Origin: Verrucomicrobiaceae bacterium
GTDB taxonomy: Bacteria > Verrucomicrobiota > Verrucomicrobiia > Verrucomicrobiales > Verrucomicrobiaceae
Assembly: GCA_027487315.1 (NCBI GenBank)
Contig: JAIYDW010000141.1
Span: 1-32,266, forward strand
DNA length: 32,266 nucleotides
Reading direction: 5' to 3'
Position numbers and translations under genes: made by a program. A model generated the notes under the pieces. It did no database searches and was not told where the DNA came from. It saw only the letters and a program-made list of their open reading frames with translations. This document shows positions 3,354 to 22,384 of this stretch, piece by piece; position 1 is the stretch's first letter; every line of letters begins with the position of its first letter.

Positions 3354-6152
3354 ATGGAGCCCATTAAAAACTCTCGGACTTACCTCGGCGCTGAGGGCAA
3401 GGGGAGTGGTGTGCGTTCGGGGAAGGGTGGGAAGAACAAGCGCGACGGGCTTGGACGAGGCAGTCCGGCGATGATCGATGATCATATCGAGACGATCTGC
3501 AGCATTCTGCCGGATGGAACGTTTGCGTATGTGAATGATGTTTTTTGCCGGGTGTTTGGCAAGAAGCGGAGTCAGTTCGTTGGGAAGAAGTGGGTGGGGA
3601 TGGTCGAGGAAGAGGATTTGGAGAGGATTCAGAAGCAGTTGCAGCAGTTGAGGCCGGAGATTCCGGTGGTGGTGGTGGAGCACCGGGTGCAATTAGGAGC
3701 GGGGGGTGCGCGGTGGATGCAGTTTGTGAATCGGGGGATGTTTGACGAGCGGGGGAATCTTCTTGAGACGCGGGTGGTGGGTCGGGACATCACGGAGCGG
3801 GTGGAAATGGAGATGGCTCTGAAGGAGAGCCGGGAGCGGTGGAAGTTTGCGATTGAGAGTTCGGGGGACGGTGTTTGGGATTGGAACGTGGCGACAGGAG
3901 AGGTGAAGTTTTCGGATCGATGGAAGGGGATGCTGGGGTATTTGCCGGAAGAGATTTTGGGAGGGTTTGAAGAATGGGAGTCGCGGGTGCACCCGGATGA
4001 TTTGGCGGATGCCAAGGCGGGGTTGAAGGCGCACTTTGAGGGGGTGAAGGCGTCGTTCGTGCAGGAGTTTCGGATGAAGTGCAAGGATGGGAGTTGGAAG
4101 TGGATCTTGACGCGGGGGAAGGTGATTGCGCGGGATGGGAAGGGGGCGCCGTTGCGGGCGATCGGAACGCACACGGACATATCGGAAGCGAAAGCGGCGA
4201 AGGCGCGGGAGGCGGAGAATTTGAGGTTGATTGCGGAGGGAGCGCCCTGTGATTCGGTGTTGGATGCGATCGTGCGCCATGTTGAGGCAGAGCATCCGGA
4301 GATGTATTGCAACGTGATGGCGGTAGATCATGTCGCGGGGGTTTTGAAGGTGCGTGCAGGTCCGAGAATGCCTAAGTGGTATTTGAAGGCTGTGGATGGA
4401 GCGAAGATTGATCGGTTTGGAGTCTGCAGTTGTGCTGCGGTGCATTCTGGTGAGCGCGATGTGACGGAGGACATTCGGGTGGATGAGCGGTGGAAAGAGC
4501 GGCGTGAGTTGGTGGCCAAGTTGGGGATGGTGGCTGGCTGGGCGGAGCCGATTCGGAGTCGCTCGGGTTTGGCGTTGGGGGCCTTGGCGTGTTACCATCG
4601 AGAGCCGCATTTGCCGACCTGGGCGGAGATTGAGACGGTGATGAATGCGGTGTCGTTGGCGGCGGTGGCGCTGGAGCGGGAGCAAGAGGAGAGGGCGCTG
4701 CGGGAGAGCGAAGGGAAGTTTCGGGCGGTGTTTCAGCAGGCGGCGGTGGGCGTGGCGGTGTTGGAGACGGCGACGGGTCGGTTTTTGGATGTCAATCAGC
4801 GCATGTGCGAGATCAACGGTTTGACGCGAGAGGACATGCTGAAGACGAATTTCATGGCACTGACGTTGCCGGAAGATTTGGGGGGTGATTTGGCTCAGAT
4901 GAAGCGGTTGGTGGCGGGTGAGATTCCGAATTTCACGATGGAGAAGCGGAATATCCGAGGTGATGGACAGATTTGCTGGGTCAACTTAACGGTATCGCCG
5001 CTCTGGCAACCGGGAGAACCTCCGTTACGTCATGTGGCAGTGTTGCAGGACATTACGGGGAGCAAGTTGGCGGAGGCAAACTACCGGAGGCAGTTGGAAT
5101 ACAATCGAGCGTTGGTGGCGAACACGAGTGCCTACATGGTATCGTTGGATTCGAAGGGGCGGTTTGTGCATGTTAATGATTCGTTTTTGAAGGGTTCGGG
5201 ATACGCGTTGGAGGAGGTGTTGAACCGGAGGCCGTGGGAGATTGGATTGATGAACAAGGAGGATGCGATGCGTTCGAAGGAACGGTTTGGGGTGGTGTTG
5301 TCAGGGGAGGAGAGTCCGCCGATTGAGCTGAGGTTGAAGACTCGCGGTGGAAGCTGGCGGGTGGTCGAAGTGAGGAGTGCGATGACCCGGACTCCTGACG
5401 GGAAACCGGATCGCATCATTGTCACGGGAACGGATCTGACGGAGCGGAATCGATTGCAGCAGGAGGTGCTGAATGTGGTGGAGAGGGAGCAGGCACGGCT
5501 GGGGCATGATTTGCACGACGGGGTGGGGCAGACGATGACGGGAGTGGTGGCGTTGATTGACGCGCTGGAGGAGGGCTTGAATGGGGAGGCGAAGCAGGAT
5601 GCGGCGAGGATTCGGAAGTTGATTCAGGACGGGGTGTCTGAGATGCGGCGGATGTCGCATGGGCTATCGCCGATGAGTGTGAAGTATCGGGGACTGGAGG
5701 GATCGCTGGAGTTGTTGGCGGAGACGGTGCGACTGAATCATCGGACGCCGTGTGTGTGTGTGATTGAAGAGGGGATCGTGATTGAAGATGACGACACGCA
5801 GACGCATCTTTATCGCATTGCTCAGGAGGCGGTGAACAATGCGCTGCGTCATGGCGATCCGAAGACGATCTGGATACGGCTGAAGACGGAGAGTATAGGG
5901 GTGAGCGTTTTGAGTGTGGAAGATGACGGGTCGGGGATCAAAAAGGCAAAAGGCAAGGGGACTAAGAGTGAGGGGGGGGCGGTTAAAGCGGGGATTGGGA
6001 TGCGAGTGATGGAGTATCGGGCGAACTTGATCGGGGCGGAGTTGGAGGTAAAATCGCGGGTGGGTGGGGGAGTGATTGTGACCTGTCGTTTGCGGGCGCC
6101 AGGTGCGTCGAGGAGCAAAGGACGTGAGTTTAAGGTGACAAAGCGAGGTTAG
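3354..6152 (+). CDS. Soluble multi-PAS/GAF sensor histidine kinase (NarL-type, HisKA_3)
   Basis: A 932-residue two-component sensor kinase. Approximate order: PAS (40-150), PAS_3-like (155-275, with GYLPEEI and RVHPDDL), GAF (285-440), PAS (445-570), PAS (575-700), HisKA_3 dimerisation domain (707-775), HATPase_c (815-920). The phosphoacceptor is the His of HDLHDGVGQ (about H721). The ATPase N-box is EAVNNALRH, and the G-boxes are EDDGSGI and GIGMRVMEYRA. I see no membrane segment or signal peptide, so it should sense cytoplasmic signals through its four PAS modules and the GAF domain. HisKA_3 kinases normally pair with LuxR/NarL-type response regulators, but none is adjacent, so this is an orphan. 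ATG 3354 follows a GAGG at 3347-3350. The N-terminal ~40 residues are low-complexity and basic. Confidence 0.93.
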   Translation: MEPIKNSRTYLGAEGKGSGVRSGKGGKNKRDGLGRGSPAMIDDHIETICSILPDGTFAYVNDVFCRVFGKKRSQFVGKKWVGMVEEEDLERIQKQLQQLRPEIPVVVVEHRVQLGAGGARWMQFVNRGMFDERGNLLETRVVGRDITERVEMEMALKESRERWKFAIESSGDGVWDWNVATGEVKFSDRWKGMLGYLPEEILGGFEEWESRVHPDDLADAKAGLKAHFEGVKASFVQEFRMKCKDGSWKWILTRGKVIARDGKGAPLRAIGTHTDISEAKAAKAREAENLRLIAEGAPCDSVLDAIVRHVEAEHPEMYCNVMAVDHVAGVLKVRAGPRMPKWYLKAVDGAKIDRFGVCSCAAVHSGERDVTEDIRVDERWKERRELVAKLGMVAGWAEPIRSRSGLALGALACYHREPHLPTWAEIETVMNAVSLAAVALEREQEERALRESEGKFRAVFQQAAVGVAVLETATGRFLDVNQRMCEINGLTREDMLKTNFMALTLPEDLGGDLAQMKRLVAGEIPNFTMEKRNIRGDGQICWVNLTVSPLWQPGEPPLRHVAVLQDITGSKLAEANYRRQLEYNRALVANTSAYMVSLDSKGRFVHVNDSFLKGSGYALEEVLNRRPWEIGLMNKEDAMRSKERFGVVLSGEESPPIELRLKTRGGSWRVVEVRSAMTRTPDGKPDRIIVTGTDLTERNRLQQEVLNVVEREQARLGHDLHDGVGQTMTGVVALIDALEEGLNGEAKQDAARIRKLIQDGVSEMRRMSHGLSPMSVKYRGLEGSLELLAETVRLNHRTPCVCVIEEGIVIEDDDTQTHLYRIAQEAVNNALRHGDPKTIWIRLKTESIGVSVLSVEDDGSGIKKAKGKGTKSEGGAVKAGIGMRVMEYRANLIGAELEVKSRVGGGVIVTCRLRAPGASRSKGREFKVTKRG

Positions 6153-6482: not shown

Positions 6483-8327
6483 ATGAAGCGGATTTTACAG
6501 TTGGGGATGATGCTGGCTTTGGCTCTGTTTGGGCTGGGGGGTGATTTGGGTGCGCAGTCGATTGGGCTGGCGTTGCCTGAGGATTCGCCGGTGAAGGCGA
6601 CTTTGGTGGCGGAGGTGACGGTGGGGGTTTCCGGGGTGCCGTTTCGGGCGGCGGTGAAGCTGGAGCATGCGCCGGAGTGGCATACTTATGGGAAGGTGTT
6701 GCCACCGGAGGTGATTGGGAAGCCGACGTCGTTGAAGTGGACGCTGCCGGAGGGGTGGACGGTGGAGGAGTTGCCGTGGCCGGAGACACATGAGGTGCCT
6801 TCGACGGATGGGAAGAAGAGTGTGGGGTATGATGGGACGGTGTATTTGCCGGTGAAGGTGACGCCGAAGGGTGGGGTGGGGACGAGTGCGGAGATCAAGG
6901 TGAAGGTGGACGCGCTGGCGTGTGATCCGAAGAACTGCATGCCGCAGCGGCCTGAGGCATCGATGACGTTCGCTTTGGGGGAGGCGGTGGTGATGAATGC
7001 GGAGTTGGCGGGGGAGTTTGCGAAGATGGCGGCGTTGGTGGTGCCGAAAGCTGAGGCGGTGGTGGGGCCGAAGGTTGAGACTGAGGCGGTAGTGGCGCCG
7101 GTGAAGAAGGCGGAGCGGTCGTTTTTTGGGTATCTGGTGTTTGCGTTCGTTGGGGGATTGATTTTGAACGTGATGCCGTGCGTTTTCCCGGTGCTGGGAA
7201 TTAAGATCATGAGTGTGGTGCAGCAGGCGGGGGGAGATAAGCGGCAGGTGCTGATGCATGGGCTGGCTTACACGGTGGGGATTTTGATTTGTTTTTGGGC
7301 GCTGGGAGGGTTGGTGATTTCGCTGGGCAAGACGTGGGGGTTTCAATTGCAGTCGGCGGGGTTTGTCTTTGGGCTGGCGGCGTTCTTTTTGATTTTTGGA
7401 TTGAACATGGCGGGGGTGTTTGAGATTGGGGCGTCGGCGGTGGGTGTGGGAGCGAATCTGCAGGCGAAGCATGGGTTGAGCGGATCGTTTTTCTCCGGCT
7501 TGCTGGCGGTGGTGGTGGCGACGCCGTGCTCGGCGCCGTTTTTGGGGTCAGCGTTGGGTTACACGGTGACGTTGCCGGGGGTGCAGGCGATGCTGATGTT
7601 CACGATGATTGGGATCGGGCTGGCGAGTCCGTTTTTGGTGCTGTCGCTAGTGCCATCGTTGGTGTCGGCGCTGCCGAGGCCGGGGGCGTGGATGGAGAGC
7701 TTTAAGCAGGGGATGTCGTTTTTGTTGTTTGGGACGGTGGTGTTTTTGGTCTGGGTGCTGACGGGGATGATTGAGGGTCAACCGATGCTGTTCCTGTTGT
7801 TTGGGTTGGTGGTGGTGGCGCTGGGGTGCTGGATTTATGGGCGGTGGTCGCTGCCGCACAAGTCGCAGCGGACGCGTTTGATTGCGGTTGTGCTGGCGGG
7901 GTTGGCGGTGGTGGGTGGGTTAGCTTTCGGGTGGCCGGAGGTGGAGGTGGCTTCGGTGGAAGAGGGGAGTCATTCCGAGGGTGGGTTGACGTGGGAGGCG
8001 TGGTCGCCGGAGAAGGCGGCGGCGCTGCGGGCGGAAGGGAAGGCGGTGTATATTGATTACACGGCGAAGTGGTGCTTTACATGCCAGGTGAACAAGCGGG
8101 TGTACAAAGACCCGGCGGTGCAGAAGGCGATTGCGGATAGGAACGTGGTGCTGTTGAAGGCGGACTGGACGAATGAGGATCCTCGGATCAGTCAGGCGCT
8201 GTCAGAGTTGGGGAAGGCGGCGGTGCCTGTGAATGTGCTTTATTTGCCGGGGGTGAAGGAGCCGGTGGTGCTGGACGAGTTGTTGTCGGCGGATGGGGTG
8301 GTCAAGGCGATTGAGCAGGTGCCTTGA
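6483..8327 (+). CDS. dsbD: Thiol:disulfide interchange protein DsbD (full length)
   Basis: It moves reducing power from cytoplasmic thioredoxin across the inner membrane to periplasmic thiol proteins. The 614-residue protein has all three modules. A signal peptide (MKRILQLGMMLALALFGL...) leads into a periplasmic DsbD N-terminal domain (about 25-190) with HAPEWHTYGK and a cysteine pair at about C147/C152. The membrane core (about 210-480) carries NVMPCVFPVLG (C233) and ATPCSAPFLG (C349). The periplasmic thioredoxin domain has the active site AKWCFTCQVNK (C531/C534). All three redox pairs needed for the relay are therefore present. It converges on the metallo-hydrolase gene with only a few bases between stops. 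A second, stand-alone homologue of its N-terminal domain lies at 14512-15381. Confidence 0.94.
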   Translation: MKRILQLGMMLALALFGLGGDLGAQSIGLALPEDSPVKATLVAEVTVGVSGVPFRAAVKLEHAPEWHTYGKVLPPEVIGKPTSLKWTLPEGWTVEELPWPETHEVPSTDGKKSVGYDGTVYLPVKVTPKGGVGTSAEIKVKVDALACDPKNCMPQRPEASMTFALGEAVVMNAELAGEFAKMAALVVPKAEAVVGPKVETEAVVAPVKKAERSFFGYLVFAFVGGLILNVMPCVFPVLGIKIMSVVQQAGGDKRQVLMHGLAYTVGILICFWALGGLVISLGKTWGFQLQSAGFVFGLAAFFLIFGLNMAGVFEIGASAVGVGANLQAKHGLSGSFFSGLLAVVVATPCSAPFLGSALGYTVTLPGVQAMLMFTMIGIGLASPFLVLSLVPSLVSALPRPGAWMESFKQGMSFLLFGTVVFLVWVLTGMIEGQPMLFLLFGLVVVALGCWIYGRWSLPHKSQRTRLIAVVLAGLAVVGGLAFGWPEVEVASVEEGSHSEGGLTWEAWSPEKAAALRAEGKAVYIDYTAKWCFTCQVNKRVYKDPAVQKAIADRNVVLLKADWTNEDPRISQALSELGKAAVPVNVLYLPGVKEPVVLDELLSADGVVKAIEQVP

Positions 8328-12373: not shown

Positions 12374-12476
12374 GGGGGAGTGGAATTGGGATAATGATGA
12401 GGGCGGAGGGAGGGGGGAGTCAAGGATGGGGTGAATGAGAGGGTGCAGTCGGCGTGAGGTTTGCTATGGGAGGGGT

Positions 12477-14504
12477 ATGACTCAGAGTTCCAGGCATTTC
12501 CAAATTGCGATTGTGGGGGGTGGGTTTGGGGGGATTTACTGTGCGCAGCGGGTGTTGAAGCGATTGAAGCATTTGGAGGATATCAAGGTGGGGTTGATTG
12601 CGCAGGAGAACTACATGGTGTTTCAGCCGATGCTGGCGGAGGTGGTAGGGGGATCGCTTTCGCCACGGCATGTGGTGAATCCAGTGCGGTTGCTGGTGCC
12701 TGGGGCGGATGTGCTGAAGGCGGAGGTTTTGGCGGTGGATTTGAAAAACAAGACGCTGACGCTGGATGGGGGGCCGTTTGTGCCGACGCTGACAGTGACT
12801 TTTGATCAGTTGGTTTTATCACCCGGAGCGGCGATGGATTTGTCGCGATTTCCGGGGATGGCTGAGCATGCGTATCTGATGCGGAATGTGGGGGATGCGA
12901 TGAAGTTGCGGTCGTCGATCATCGCGCGGATGGAGGAGGCGAACTTGGTGAGTGATGCGGCGGAGCGGCGGCGGATTTTGTCGTTTGTGGTGGTGGGAGG
13001 CGGGTATTCGGGCGTGGAGACGGCGGGGCAGATGGCGGATTTGCTGGGGAGTGTGTGCTCGTACTATGAGTTTGTGAAGCCGGATGAGGCGTCGGTGACG
13101 CTGATACATTCGCGGGAGGCGTTGTTGCCGACGCTGGACCGGTCATTGGGGGAGTACACGAAGCGGCAGTTGGAGAAGATGGGGGTGACGGTGAGGTTGA
13201 ACACGCGAGTTAGGTCGGTGACGGCGAGGACGGTGCAGTTGGGGGATGGGGAGTGTTTGGAGGCGACAACGGTGGTTTGTACGATTGGGAACACGCCGCA
13301 TCCTTTGCTGGCGAAGTTGGCAGCGAGTGGGGAGGTGCCGATGGAGCGGGGTAAGATCGCTGTGGAGGCGACGGGGCAGGTGAAGGGGGTGCCGTGGTTG
13401 TGGGCGGTGGGGGATTGCGCGGTGTTTCCGAAGGCGGATGGGGGGAGTTGTCCGGAGACAGCGCAGTTTGCGATGAGGGAGGGGTTTTGTGTGGGAGAGA
13501 ATTTGGCGGCGACGGTGTTTGAGCGGCCGTTGATGCCGTTCACCTTTACGGGGCTGGGTGAGTTGGCGTCGATTGGGCACCGAACGGCGGTCGCTCAGAT
13601 TGCGGGTATCAACTTCTCGGGGTTCATCGCGTGGTTCATGTGGCGTTCGATTTATTTGATGAAGTTGCCGGGGCTGGATCGGAAGTTGAGGGTGATGGTG
13701 GAGTGGACGTTTGATTTGTTTTTTCCGCGAGACATCAACTTGCTGACGCCGGATTATTCATCGCCCCTGCAAGAGATGCATCTCAATGAGGGGGATGTGT
13801 TGTTTCGGGCTGGGGAGCCGGCTTTTTCGTTGTATGCGGTGAGTGCGGGGCAGGTGGACATTTTGGATGAGGAGGGGCATGTGGTGAAGAGCGCGGGGCC
13901 GGGGGATCACTTCGGGGAGCGGGCGCTGCTAGAGGACAAGATTTGGCGGTACAAGGCGGTGGCGGTGAAGCCGACGACTTTGGTGGCGATTGGGGCGCGG
14001 ACGTTTGAGAAGATGGTGGGGTCGATGGGGGAGTTGGGGTCTTTGTTCCGCAGAACGGCGGGGACGTATACTTCGGCGGATCAGGTACAGGCGACTTTGG
14101 AGTCGCTGCCGGAGGGGATGCGGGGGCGGACGGTGCGCGAGGTGATGTGCGCGGAGGTGGCGGCGATTGGATGTGATGATCCGGTGGCGTCAGTGCTGGA
14201 GGTGTTTCAGAAGCAGCACCACAGTTCGTATCCGGTGGTGAATGGGCAGGGGCAGGTGTTGGGACTGCTGAAGCGTTCAGCGCTTTATGAGTGGGTGCAG
14301 AGCCGGGGGATGAAGCCGGGGGTGTGTGTGACGGAGGTGCCGCTGGTGCAGGCGGTGCGGGTGCCGCCGGATCGGCCAGTGGCGGCGTTGTTTGAGGAGT
14401 TGATTCGGTGTGGGGCGTCGAAGGCGGTGGTTGTGGATGAGAAGGGGGTGTTGATGGGGATGGTGACGTTGTTTGATTTGATGAAGGGGACGGAGGGGCG
14501 GTGA
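12477..14504 (+). CDS. NDH-2-like FAD/NADH oxidoreductase fused to cyclic-nucleotide-binding and CBS domains
   Basis: A 675-residue fusion. Residues 1-420 are a type II NADH dehydrogenase-like flavoprotein: FAD-binding IVGGGFGG at the N-terminus, NAD-binding VVVGGGYSGVETAG around 170-185, the second FAD motif WAVGDCA, and a quinone-site-like TAQFAMREG (A329/Q330). NDH-2 enzymes oxidise NADH and reduce quinone without pumping protons. A hydrophobic/aromatic segment (FIAWFMWRSIYLM) near 385-400 could anchor it to the membrane. A cNMP-binding domain follows (about 430-545; PGDHFGERALLED matches the phosphate-cassette region), then two CBS motifs (about 557-672; VREVMCAE and SKAVVVDEKGVLMGMVTL). 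The last parts suggest control by a nucleotide ligand. ATG 12477 is preceded by a strong GGGAGGGG. Another in-frame start at 12435 lacks this. Confidence 0.92.
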   Translation: MTQSSRHFQIAIVGGGFGGIYCAQRVLKRLKHLEDIKVGLIAQENYMVFQPMLAEVVGGSLSPRHVVNPVRLLVPGADVLKAEVLAVDLKNKTLTLDGGPFVPTLTVTFDQLVLSPGAAMDLSRFPGMAEHAYLMRNVGDAMKLRSSIIARMEEANLVSDAAERRRILSFVVVGGGYSGVETAGQMADLLGSVCSYYEFVKPDEASVTLIHSREALLPTLDRSLGEYTKRQLEKMGVTVRLNTRVRSVTARTVQLGDGECLEATTVVCTIGNTPHPLLAKLAASGEVPMERGKIAVEATGQVKGVPWLWAVGDCAVFPKADGGSCPETAQFAMREGFCVGENLAATVFERPLMPFTFTGLGELASIGHRTAVAQIAGINFSGFIAWFMWRSIYLMKLPGLDRKLRVMVEWTFDLFFPRDINLLTPDYSSPLQEMHLNEGDVLFRAGEPAFSLYAVSAGQVDILDEEGHVVKSAGPGDHFGERALLEDKIWRYKAVAVKPTTLVAIGARTFEKMVGSMGELGSLFRRTAGTYTSADQVQATLESLPEGMRGRTVREVMCAEVAAIGCDDPVASVLEVFQKQHHSSYPVVNGQGQVLGLLKRSALYEWVQSRGMKPGVCVTEVPLVQAVRVPPDRPVAALFEELIRCGASKAVVVDEKGVLMGMVTLFDLMKGTEGR

Positions 14505-14511
14505 TGAGTGA

Positions 14512-17528
<3,017 letters not shown>

Positions 17529-20389: not shown

Positions 20390-22384
20390 CTAGCGGCGGC
20401 GGCGGAGGGTGAGGGTGAGGAGGCCGAGGGTTAGGAAGAGGGTGCGGGAGGGTTCGGGGACGATGGAGAAGGTTCCTGAGAGGCGATCAAATTGGCCGAT
20501 GAGATCTCCAGAAAGACCTAGATTGGTGTAGTCCACGTTGAAGTCATCGGTGATGGTGCCTCCGCCTGTAAAATCAAACAGGTGCCATGAATCTCCCAAG
20601 GCGAAGGTGGTGGGGCCGATTCGGTTTGTGATCACGATGGTTCCGAGATTTGGGCCCATGCTGTTGTTGTTGAGGGTGCCAGGGAGTTTGATGTAGTCAG
20701 CGGAGCCGAGGGGGTTGGCACCGCCAATGCGGGTGAAGAGATCGAAGTGGAAGAGGGAGGAGGTGGAGGTCGTAGTGACCCCACTGCCAGAGGTCGTGAG
20801 GGTGATGGAAGAGGCGACGGGGGAGCCGAGGGTGGTGTCGCCGACGATGAGGCTGCCGTTGAGGTTAATGTTTGTGTTGATGGCTGGGGCGATGATGCCG
20901 GTGCCGGAGAGTGTGCCGGTGGAGTCGAGGGTGAGTGCGCCAGTGCCGGTGGCGGAGCCCGAGCCGTTGGTGACGTTGAGGGTGCCGCCTGAGATGGTGG
21001 TACCGCCTGTGTAGGTGTTGGTATCGCCCAAAGTCTGAGTGCCAGAGCCAGATTTGACGAGACTGATCGCTCCTGTGATAATGCCAGAGTTCGCATTGGT
21101 GCCGTCCCCGTAGCTGTAGGTTCCGCTGCCACCGATGGTGAGGGTAGCAGTACCACCGGAAGTCACGGTGTTATTGGTGGGAGTTGCATTGCTGCCGGTC
21201 GTTGAGTTAAGGCCAGCGATCTGCTGGCTGCGGCTGTTCAGGTCGAGCGTGCCGAGGTTAGCACTGGAAGCCTGACCAAGGGCAACCACGGTGCCGGTGG
21301 GCAAGCGGTCGTTGCCGGTGGTGAGTTGAAGGGTTCCCTGCTGGATACTGGTCGCCCCGTCATATGTATGCACGCCAGCGGCAATGAGGATTCCGGTTCC
21401 CACTTTGGTGAACGATCCTCCTGCGGTGCCTGCAACAACATTCGTCAGGGTGATGGTTCCTCCTGTAGTGTCGAAGGTTCCTCCACTTGCACCCAAGGTG
21501 AGCCCACGATTGCTGCTGAAGTTCACACTTCCCGTGGAACGGATTCCACCCCCATTCAGGGTGATTTGATCTGCGACATTAGAAGCAGGGTTTGCGCCGA
21601 ACATGCTTTCGCCACTGCCTGCAACAAAGCCCGCATTGATCACGGTCTTGCCCGTGAAGGTATTGTTGGTTGCCAAAGTTAGAGTGCCCGTGCCTGTTTT
21701 AGTGAAGCCCGAGTTCGTTGACAGTTCACTGATGATACTTGAGATCGTCAGCGTTCTACCGGATGCAATATCGAAGATGCCGTCAGTGATGCCCAATCGC
21801 AAGCCCATTGTATTACTGCCCGAAATGTTAGGTGCAATTGTAAAGTCAGCCGAGCCAGCAACTCGGACTAGAGTTTTTCCGACCGAGTTAATTGTTGCTC
21901 CGTTGACCTGGAGAATTCCGTTTGTGCCAGAGTTGTTTCCAATGGTTAGACCAGTGGTGTTTGTTTTGTTAAAGTCGATCCCACCTAGCGTTAAGGTAGC
22001 ACCCAAACCATTGGCCCCAGTAGCTGCAAAGTTTAAACCAATCGTGCTCGCGGCATTGGTTGCCCCAACTGCCATAATGTCTGTTGCGAGACCTGGCGTG
22101 CCATTCGCTGGTGTCCTCGTCGATAACCCTGCGAACGTACCAGAGGGGTTCCAGTTAGTGCCATTTGCCCATGACCCTCCAGTGGAGCCTGTCCAAGTGC
22201 GGGTTGTCTGTCCCCAAGCCACTGGACCGAACGCTAAACATAGAACGACGGCGAGAGCGAGTTTTGGGTTTGGGGAAAGCTTAAAGCCATGCCCGGGAAT
22301 TACGCGGATAAGACCTTTGAGTGCGAGGAAAAGTTCGAAATACTTCGATCGAAGGAAAGGGGGCGTGGCAAAGATTCTGTTCAT
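20390..22384 (-). CDS. Autotransporter-associated beta-strand-repeat protein with PEP-CTERM sorting signal
   Basis: A 664-residue secreted surface protein. The signal peptide has an unusually long N-region; the hydrophobic core is KLALAVVLCLAFGPVAWGQ at about 42-60. The body is rich in Gly, Thr, Asn and Ser and has repeated units of the autotransporter-associated (PATR) type: a TGTGTLTLA-type start, then NTFTGKTVINAG, HTYDGATSIQQGTL or NTYTGGTTISGGTLNV. These form a right-handed beta-helix in related proteins. There is no outer-membrane autotransporter barrel. Instead it ends in PEPSRTLFLTLGLL plus RRRR, a PEP-CTERM signal processed by an exosortase, so it is likely anchored or released at the cell surface. 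No exosortase gene is in view. It has its own terminator. Confidence 0.9.
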   Translation of the reverse strand: MNRIFATPPFLRSKYFELFLALKGLIRVIPGHGFKLSPNPKLALAVVLCLAFGPVAWGQTTRTWTGSTGGSWANGTNWNPSGTFAGLSTRTPANGTPGLATDIMAVGATNAASTIGLNFAATGANGLGATLTLGGIDFNKTNTTGLTIGNNSGTNGILQVNGATINSVGKTLVRVAGSADFTIAPNISGSNTMGLRLGITDGIFDIASGRTLTISSIISELSTNSGFTKTGTGTLTLATNNTFTGKTVINAGFVAGSGESMFGANPASNVADQITLNGGGIRSTGSVNFSSNRGLTLGASGGTFDTTGGTITLTNVVAGTAGGSFTKVGTGILIAAGVHTYDGATSIQQGTLQLTTGNDRLPTGTVVALGQASSANLGTLDLNSRSQQIAGLNSTTGSNATPTNNTVTSGGTATLTIGGSGTYSYGDGTNANSGIITGAISLVKSGSGTQTLGDTNTYTGGTTISGGTLNVTNGSGSATGTGALTLDSTGTLSGTGIIAPAINTNINLNGSLIVGDTTLGSPVASSITLTTSGSGVTTTSTSSLFHFDLFTRIGGANPLGSADYIKLPGTLNNNSMGPNLGTIVITNRIGPTTFALGDSWHLFDFTGGGTITDDFNVDYTNLGLSGDLIGQFDRLSGTFSIVPEPSRTLFLTLGLLTLTLRRRR

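Follow-up and report, generated by a model that had tools for sequence, protein, structure and literature searches.

The window (the whole 32,266-nucleotide stretch of DNA that was analyzed) encodes a protein in which an NDH-2-type dehydrogenase continues, in one reading frame, into a cyclic-nucleotide-binding (CNB) domain and a CBS pair. The reading that we favor on balance is that of an NAD(P)H:quinone oxidoreductase in the membrane, working alongside complex I and controlled through its tail, where CBS2 would hold an adenine nucleotide and the CNB domain would act as a rewired sensor. The folds of the NDH-2 core, the CNB domain and the CBS pair are each known; for their combination we found no published study.

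Gene Structure and Domain Layout

ORF analysis of the window identified an uninterrupted open frame at 12435-14504 on the forward strand (689 aa). Translation from the Met codon at 12477 yields a protein of 675 aa, and this start agrees with that of most orthologues. Pfam searches returned, all above the curated cut-offs, Pyr_redox_2 at residues 8-336 (7.9e-48), NDH2_C at 360-419 (2.2e-12), cNMP_binding (PF00027) at 434-514 (7.5e-17) and two CBS (PF00571) stretches, the best of them at 553-606 (1.1e-14). The features of the gene are as follows.

12468..12475, +: purine-rich, Shine-Dalgarno-like sequence GGGAGGGG, directly 5' of the ATG at 12477
12477..14504, +: complete gene for NDH-2 core, membrane domain, CNB domain and CBS pair (675 aa plus stop)
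12516..12533, +: FAD-binding GxGxxG, residues 14-19 (Pfam, alignment)
12996..13019, +: NAD(P)H-binding GxGxxGxE, residues 174-181 (alignment; includes E181)
13107..13109, +: His211, at the position of the NADH-selecting acid (alignment to Ndi1)
13461..13478, +: quinone-site motif AQFAMR, residues 329-334, of the AQxAxR variant (alignment, family survey)
13554..13733, +: NDH2_C membrane-anchoring domain, residues 360-419 (Pfam)
13776..14018, +: cyclic-nucleotide-binding fold, residues 434-514 (Pfam, structure match)
13911..13958, +: equivalent of the phosphate-binding cassette, FGERALLEDKIWRYKA, residues 479-494 (E481 kept; W490 at the canonical Arg position, then R491)
14133..14294, +: CBS1, residues 553-606, without the T..D nucleotide motif (Pfam, alignment)
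14322..14489, +: CBS2, about residues 616-671, start taken from the model (Pfam, model)
14457-14477, +: GMVTLFD in CBS2, residues 661-667, keeping T664 and D667 (alignment)

The first-pass annotation had described a single-frame fusion of NDH-2, cNMP and CBS parts, and this was borne out by the open frame, by the order of the Pfam domains and by orthologues elsewhere. The two motifs that it singled out, FGERALLED and AQFAMREG, were both found in the protein. As the fusion recurs in dozens of independent genomes, it is real and not an accident of assembly.

The Predicted NDH-2 Core

The full-length predicted structure (alignment of 33 sequences) had a mean pLDDT of 84.8 and a pTM of 0.65, the latter leaving the placement of the tail relative to the core uncertain. 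The NDH-2 fold, the CNB fold and the CBS pair were each recovered by structure prediction, a check that had been suggested earlier. The nearest solved proteins were mycobacterial NDH2, B. subtilis YjlD, yeast Ndi1 and the NDH-2s of C. thermarum and S. aureus, with structural Z scores of about 40-46 against NDH-2s for the full-length model. In the alignment of tailed relatives, G14, G19, G174, G176 and G179 were conserved, indicating that both Rossmann GxGxxG motifs are present, and E181, D313 (GD motif) and Q330 were invariant in 71/71 proteins. E181 is the counterpart of the catalytic residue E172 of the S. aureus enzyme and E242 of Ndi1. W389 and Y393, both invariant in the alignment, fall at X379 and X383 of the S. 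aureus numbering when aligned via Ndi1, and a Trp at X379 is reported for 53% of NDH-2s (PMC5299459). NDH2_C supplies the membrane-interacting C-terminal domain typical of the family. By sequence and predicted fold the protein is therefore assigned as an NDH-2-type enzyme, from which its activity would follow. It shares with Ndi1 and the C. thermarum and S. aureus enzymes the fold, the FAD and NAD(P)H motifs, the catalytic Glu, the GD motif, the quinone-site AQxAx[QR] and the membrane C-terminal domain, but differs from them in having about 250 more residues (CNB domain plus CBS pair), AQxAxR at the quinone site and a His for the NADH-selecting acid.

At the second Gln position of the quinone-site motif the protein has an Arg, which had been taken as a hint of a different acceptor; comparison with the family lends this hint no particular weight. 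In a survey of 1762 NDH-2s, AQxAxQ accounted for 62%, AQxAxR for 15% and APxAxQ for 10% (PMC5299459). The Gln-to-Arg change is a known variant of the motif and so does not in itself point to a different acceptor. The Arg was invariant in the tailed clade (71/71), and on this alignment it reads as a mark of the clade and no peculiarity of the window protein.

Possible Electron Donors and Proposed Place in the Respiratory Chain

His211 sits at the position of Ndi1 E272, the acid associated with NADH preference, on which the first-pass annotation was silent. A His was present there in 70/71 tailed relatives and in their tail-less sister (L066); the ordinary NDH-2s in the alignment, including the paralogue in the same genome (L002), mostly had Asp or Glu. 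With a His instead of the NADH-selecting acid, we propose that the enzyme may use NADPH, or NADH and NADPH alike, as its donor, possibly across the whole tailed clade. NDH-2-type enzymes with Gln or Asn at the acid position are described as using NADPH (PMC5877776; PMC11670749). There is an exception to this acid rule, as Ogataea Ndh2-3 has Gln and yet is stated to oxidize NADH and not NADPH (PMC11670749).

The window genome (5.87 Mb, 98.7% complete) encodes complex I and a second, tail-less, ordinary NDH-2, and no match to Nqr/Rnf was found in it. These additional enzymes, together with His211, would also be consistent with a dedicated NADPH-dependent quinone reductase of quinone synthesis or repair, resembling plant NDC1 and cyanobacterial NdbB in role, and NDH-2-type NADPH enzymes with a function of this kind are known (Fatihi et al. 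2015, in PMC5877776). We consider this quite improbable, as no quinone-biosynthesis genes were present among the neighbors examined and the Ogataea enzyme weakens the acid rule. Under our favored reading, the gene product would be a membrane-bound, non-proton-pumping NAD(P)H:quinone oxidoreductase whose cytosolic CNB and CBS tail would control allosterically how electrons enter the quinone pool. Alongside complex I and the ordinary NDH-2 of the same cell, the enzyme would represent a third, switchable valve through which excess reductant is oxidized whenever energy or redox signals allow it.

For two carrier genomes with no complex I and no other NDH-2 (G077 and G142), a role as the sole site of NADH entry was considered; it was abandoned since each of them has a match to the Nqr/Rnf family PF03116.

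Distribution, Selection and Lineage Types

The fusion was identified in 29/36 genomes of its own family, in 26/288 genomes sampled across the phylum (E<=1e-70, with partial and CBS-less matches counted) and in about 22/60 relatives of an Obscuribacterales genome. The carriers comprise Verrucomicrobiota beyond the family, Obscuribacterales and Deltaproteobacteria, with full-length orthologues at 41-64% identity. The first-pass annotation had raised the prospect that the architecture is common and already characterized; it is widespread, but no published characterization was found. Our search found no relevant literature on NDH-2s with CBS or cyclic-nucleotide domains, most subscription papers lying outside it, and a main survey of the NDH-2 family is described as having excluded fused-domain proteins before analysis (PMC5299459).

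A 93-95% identical orthologue in a same-genus MAG is split over two contigs (L005 / G001:C160). The cassette of this nearest relative reads FGG, not FGE, which may be a sequencing error. Comparison with the same-genus relative gave dN/dS values of 0.12 for the CNB domain, 0.12 for the CBS region, 0.04 for the membrane domain and 0.07 for the core piece 246-336. The tail, with a dN/dS of about 0.12, is therefore under purifying selection and maintained. A value of 2.35 for residues 8-245 was discarded, as it arose from a shifted codon alignment. Compared with five family members, the CBS region of the window protein was the fastest-evolving folded part (41% identity versus 64% for the core).

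The tailed proteins fell into four types, distinguished by their cassettes and by the T..D residues of the CBS nucleotide motif. Type I proteins (Obscuribacterales and some Verrucomicrobiota) have the canonical cassette FFGEQALxxNxPRxAS and keep T..D in CBS1, with T..D absent from CBS2; L063, from Deltaproteobacteria, resembles this type with a His replacing the Arg. Type II proteins (the window protein, its family, some Opitutales, Spartobacteria and others) have the cassette FGERALLxDxxWR[FY] and T..D in CBS2, and most are without T..D in CBS1. In type III (Akkermansiaceae-like) the cassette FGERALVHGGGYLYDA has a Tyr at the phosphate-Arg position and is without Arg, and the D is present in nearly all CBS repeats. 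Type IV proteins are about 530 residues long, with a cassette without FGE and no CBS pair. Five fusions of about 530 aa (L096, L098, L099, L100 and L059), with FGE lost and the CBS pair absent, have the appearance of a natural loss series, and in three proteins (L061, L065 and L095) the CNB domain is present and the CBS pair absent. Across the clade, the tail is therefore non-essential to the enzyme, as some relatives are without the CBS pair or the cassette.

In a tree of the catalytic part, the tailed proteins formed one clade in which types II, III and IV grouped together, with the tail-less L066 at the base. The simplest history would be a single gain of the CNB domain, after which the ligand site was altered or lost several times over. 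One further locus, L108 (G030:C8:171000-174500), has a K+ channel/TrkA_N-like frame that continues into the NDH2_C and CNB stretch of the fusion gene and then degenerates, and is either an assembly chimera or a real remnant of recombination.

The CNB Domain and Its Putative Ligand Pocket

When the tail was modeled alone (26 sequences; mean pLDDT 83.7), its CNB fold matched MloK1 (Z 18.0, 107 aligned, 3.5 A) and 5v4s (Z 18.0, 102 aligned, 1.4 A), with further matches to SthK, HCN, PKG and PKA. The first-pass annotation had recognized a Crp-like phosphate cassette in this domain. That description is right as far as the Glu for the ribose 2'-OH is concerned, which is present as E481 (E in 34/36 type II proteins); the canonical phosphate Arg, however, is replaced by W490, with R491 next, and this position varies across the clade. 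W490 was assigned to the position of PKA R209/R333 because the alignment from FGE to the next conserved strand has no gap against type I relatives, PKA and MloK1. An equivalence of R491 with CAP R82, arrived at by residue counting, was dropped in favor of this gap-free alignment. The CAP cassette is one residue longer, and by count from CAP R491 would match R82. The window protein thus has the CNB fold and the FGE-x-A of the cassette in common with MloK1, SthK, PKG and the PKA R subunits, but a Trp and then an Arg where these have the phosphate Arg.

The regulatory subunit of trypanosomatid PKA likewise has a CNB fold with the canonical Arg replaced and binds nucleosides, not cAMP; having also a Glu at the A202 position, it is reported to respond to inosine, guanosine and adenosine (PMC6440977; PMC10959531). 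In the window protein an Ala is kept at this position (A483), and therefore the nucleoside signature is absent and the protein matches neither PKA signature. The pocket, rewired so that it retains the ribose Glu and has Trp-Arg in place of the classical Arg-Ser/Ala/Thr, probably senses a small molecule.

These residues bear on whether cAMP or cGMP at the CNB domain switches the dehydrogenase in the classical manner. FGE and A483 are kept, R491 is invariant in 36/36 type II proteins, the type I relatives have a canonical cassette, and replacement of the phosphate Arg in mammalian PKA is reported to cost only about fivefold in cAMP potency (EC50; PMC6440977). Class III cyclases are present in the window genome (5 matches) and in 37/41 carrier genomes, with none found in G142 (type II), G287, G298 and G344. 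As the cyclases occur in carriers whether or not the canonical Arg is present, their co-occurrence does not discriminate. Against classical gating are W490 at the phosphate-Arg position, the Tyr of type III, the loss of FGE in type IV, the four genomes in which no class III cyclase was found and the FGG of G001. We regard classical cAMP/cGMP gating of the window protein as doubtful and, as an account of the tail, unlikely. Of the earlier proposal that quinone reduction is gated by energy charge or a cyclic nucleotide, the idea of a regulated NDH-2 holds, whereas W490 speaks against its cAMP/cGMP form.

The CBS Pair and Proposed Control of the Enzyme

The CBS pair of the tail model matched 2p9m (Z 16.8, 129 aligned, 2.8 A) and MtCorB with Mg-ATP (Z 16.4, 120 aligned, 2.2 A), and CBSX2 and DarB (with AMP) were also among its matches. 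Two CBS motifs had been noted previously; both repeats were detected, but the nucleotide residues are kept in CBS2 only. The motif G-h-h-T/S-x-x-D is present there (T664/D667), and CBS1, with K599/A602, is without it. Among the type II sequences with letters at these positions, the T/S was present in 34/34 and the D in 34/34. The fold and the CBS2 motif are shared with the adenine-nucleotide CBS pairs of CorC/CNNM, DarB and CBSX, from which the window lineage differs in its degenerate CBS1 half-site. These conserved residues make an adenine nucleotide, for example AMP, ADP or ATP, the most likely ligand of the CBS2 half-site in this lineage.

CBS pairs commonly dimerize and NDH-2s are homodimers. 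The tail might accordingly be structural, for dimerization or for docking to the membrane or a partner, with no regulatory ligand, and the drift or disappearance of cassette residues in several lineages in which the CNB fold is usually kept would be in agreement with this. However, the T and D of CBS2, E481 and R491 are near-invariant in the window's own lineage across several families, beyond what a scaffold needs, and we think a purely structural tail improbable. Returning to the gated oxidoreductase that we favor, a more specific form of it is offered only tentatively. In that form two different nucleotide-type signals would directly gate one chain throughout the clade, the CNB pocket of the window's lineage (Arg to Trp-Arg) would be rewired for a ligand distinct from cAMP and cGMP, and the enzyme would be a signal-controlled NADPH-to-quinone valve.

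Direct control at the level of a ligand does not belong to the standard view of bacterial NDH-2. The closest parallel is the EF-hand NDH-2s of plants and fungi (NDB type, Ca2+-dependent), in which an added ligand-binding element likewise serves as a gate and some members without the NADH-selecting acid use NADPH. Their Ca2+ site is described as an insertion that lies after GD and before the following helix (PMC5299459), in contrast to the C-terminal CNB and CBS tail here, and a common origin is not suggested. If the tail does act as a sensor, small signal molecules may directly switch the respiratory enzymes of an entire clade, and this clade-wide control of electron entry would be a bacterial counterpart of the Ca2+-gated enzymes. 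The clade also provides a natural series, in which one catalytic core carries a cassette with Arg, Trp-Arg or Tyr or no cassette at all, and this makes the question of orphan CNB ligands directly testable.

Gene Neighborhood

No gene neighbor was conserved across the lineages examined, and no link to a signaling system was found in them. The neighbors are LigA, DsbD-like and DUF58 proteins in the window, and LpxK, a tRNA synthetase, a phosphorylase or kinases elsewhere. Operon context was dropped as a clue to function, as the neighbors differ between lineages and no functional partner could be named. In two Obscuribacterales-type loci (L060 and L062) the fusion directly follows a TPR protein, which is preceded in L062 by a glycogen/carbohydrate phosphorylase and in L060 by an ORF of similar size, a setting with a possible link to carbon storage.

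Several other genes of the window were noted. The gene at 3354-6152 (+) encodes a sensor kinase of 932 aa that combines several PAS domains with a HisKA_3/HATPase output, and the one at 20390-22384 (-) a 664-aa, autotransporter-like protein with three passenger-associated transport repeats. Separate proteins with DsbD N-terminal domains are encoded at 6483-8327 (+) and 14512-15453 (-), one of them a full DsbD-like protein with a thioredoxin domain and the other consisting of the N-terminal domain only.
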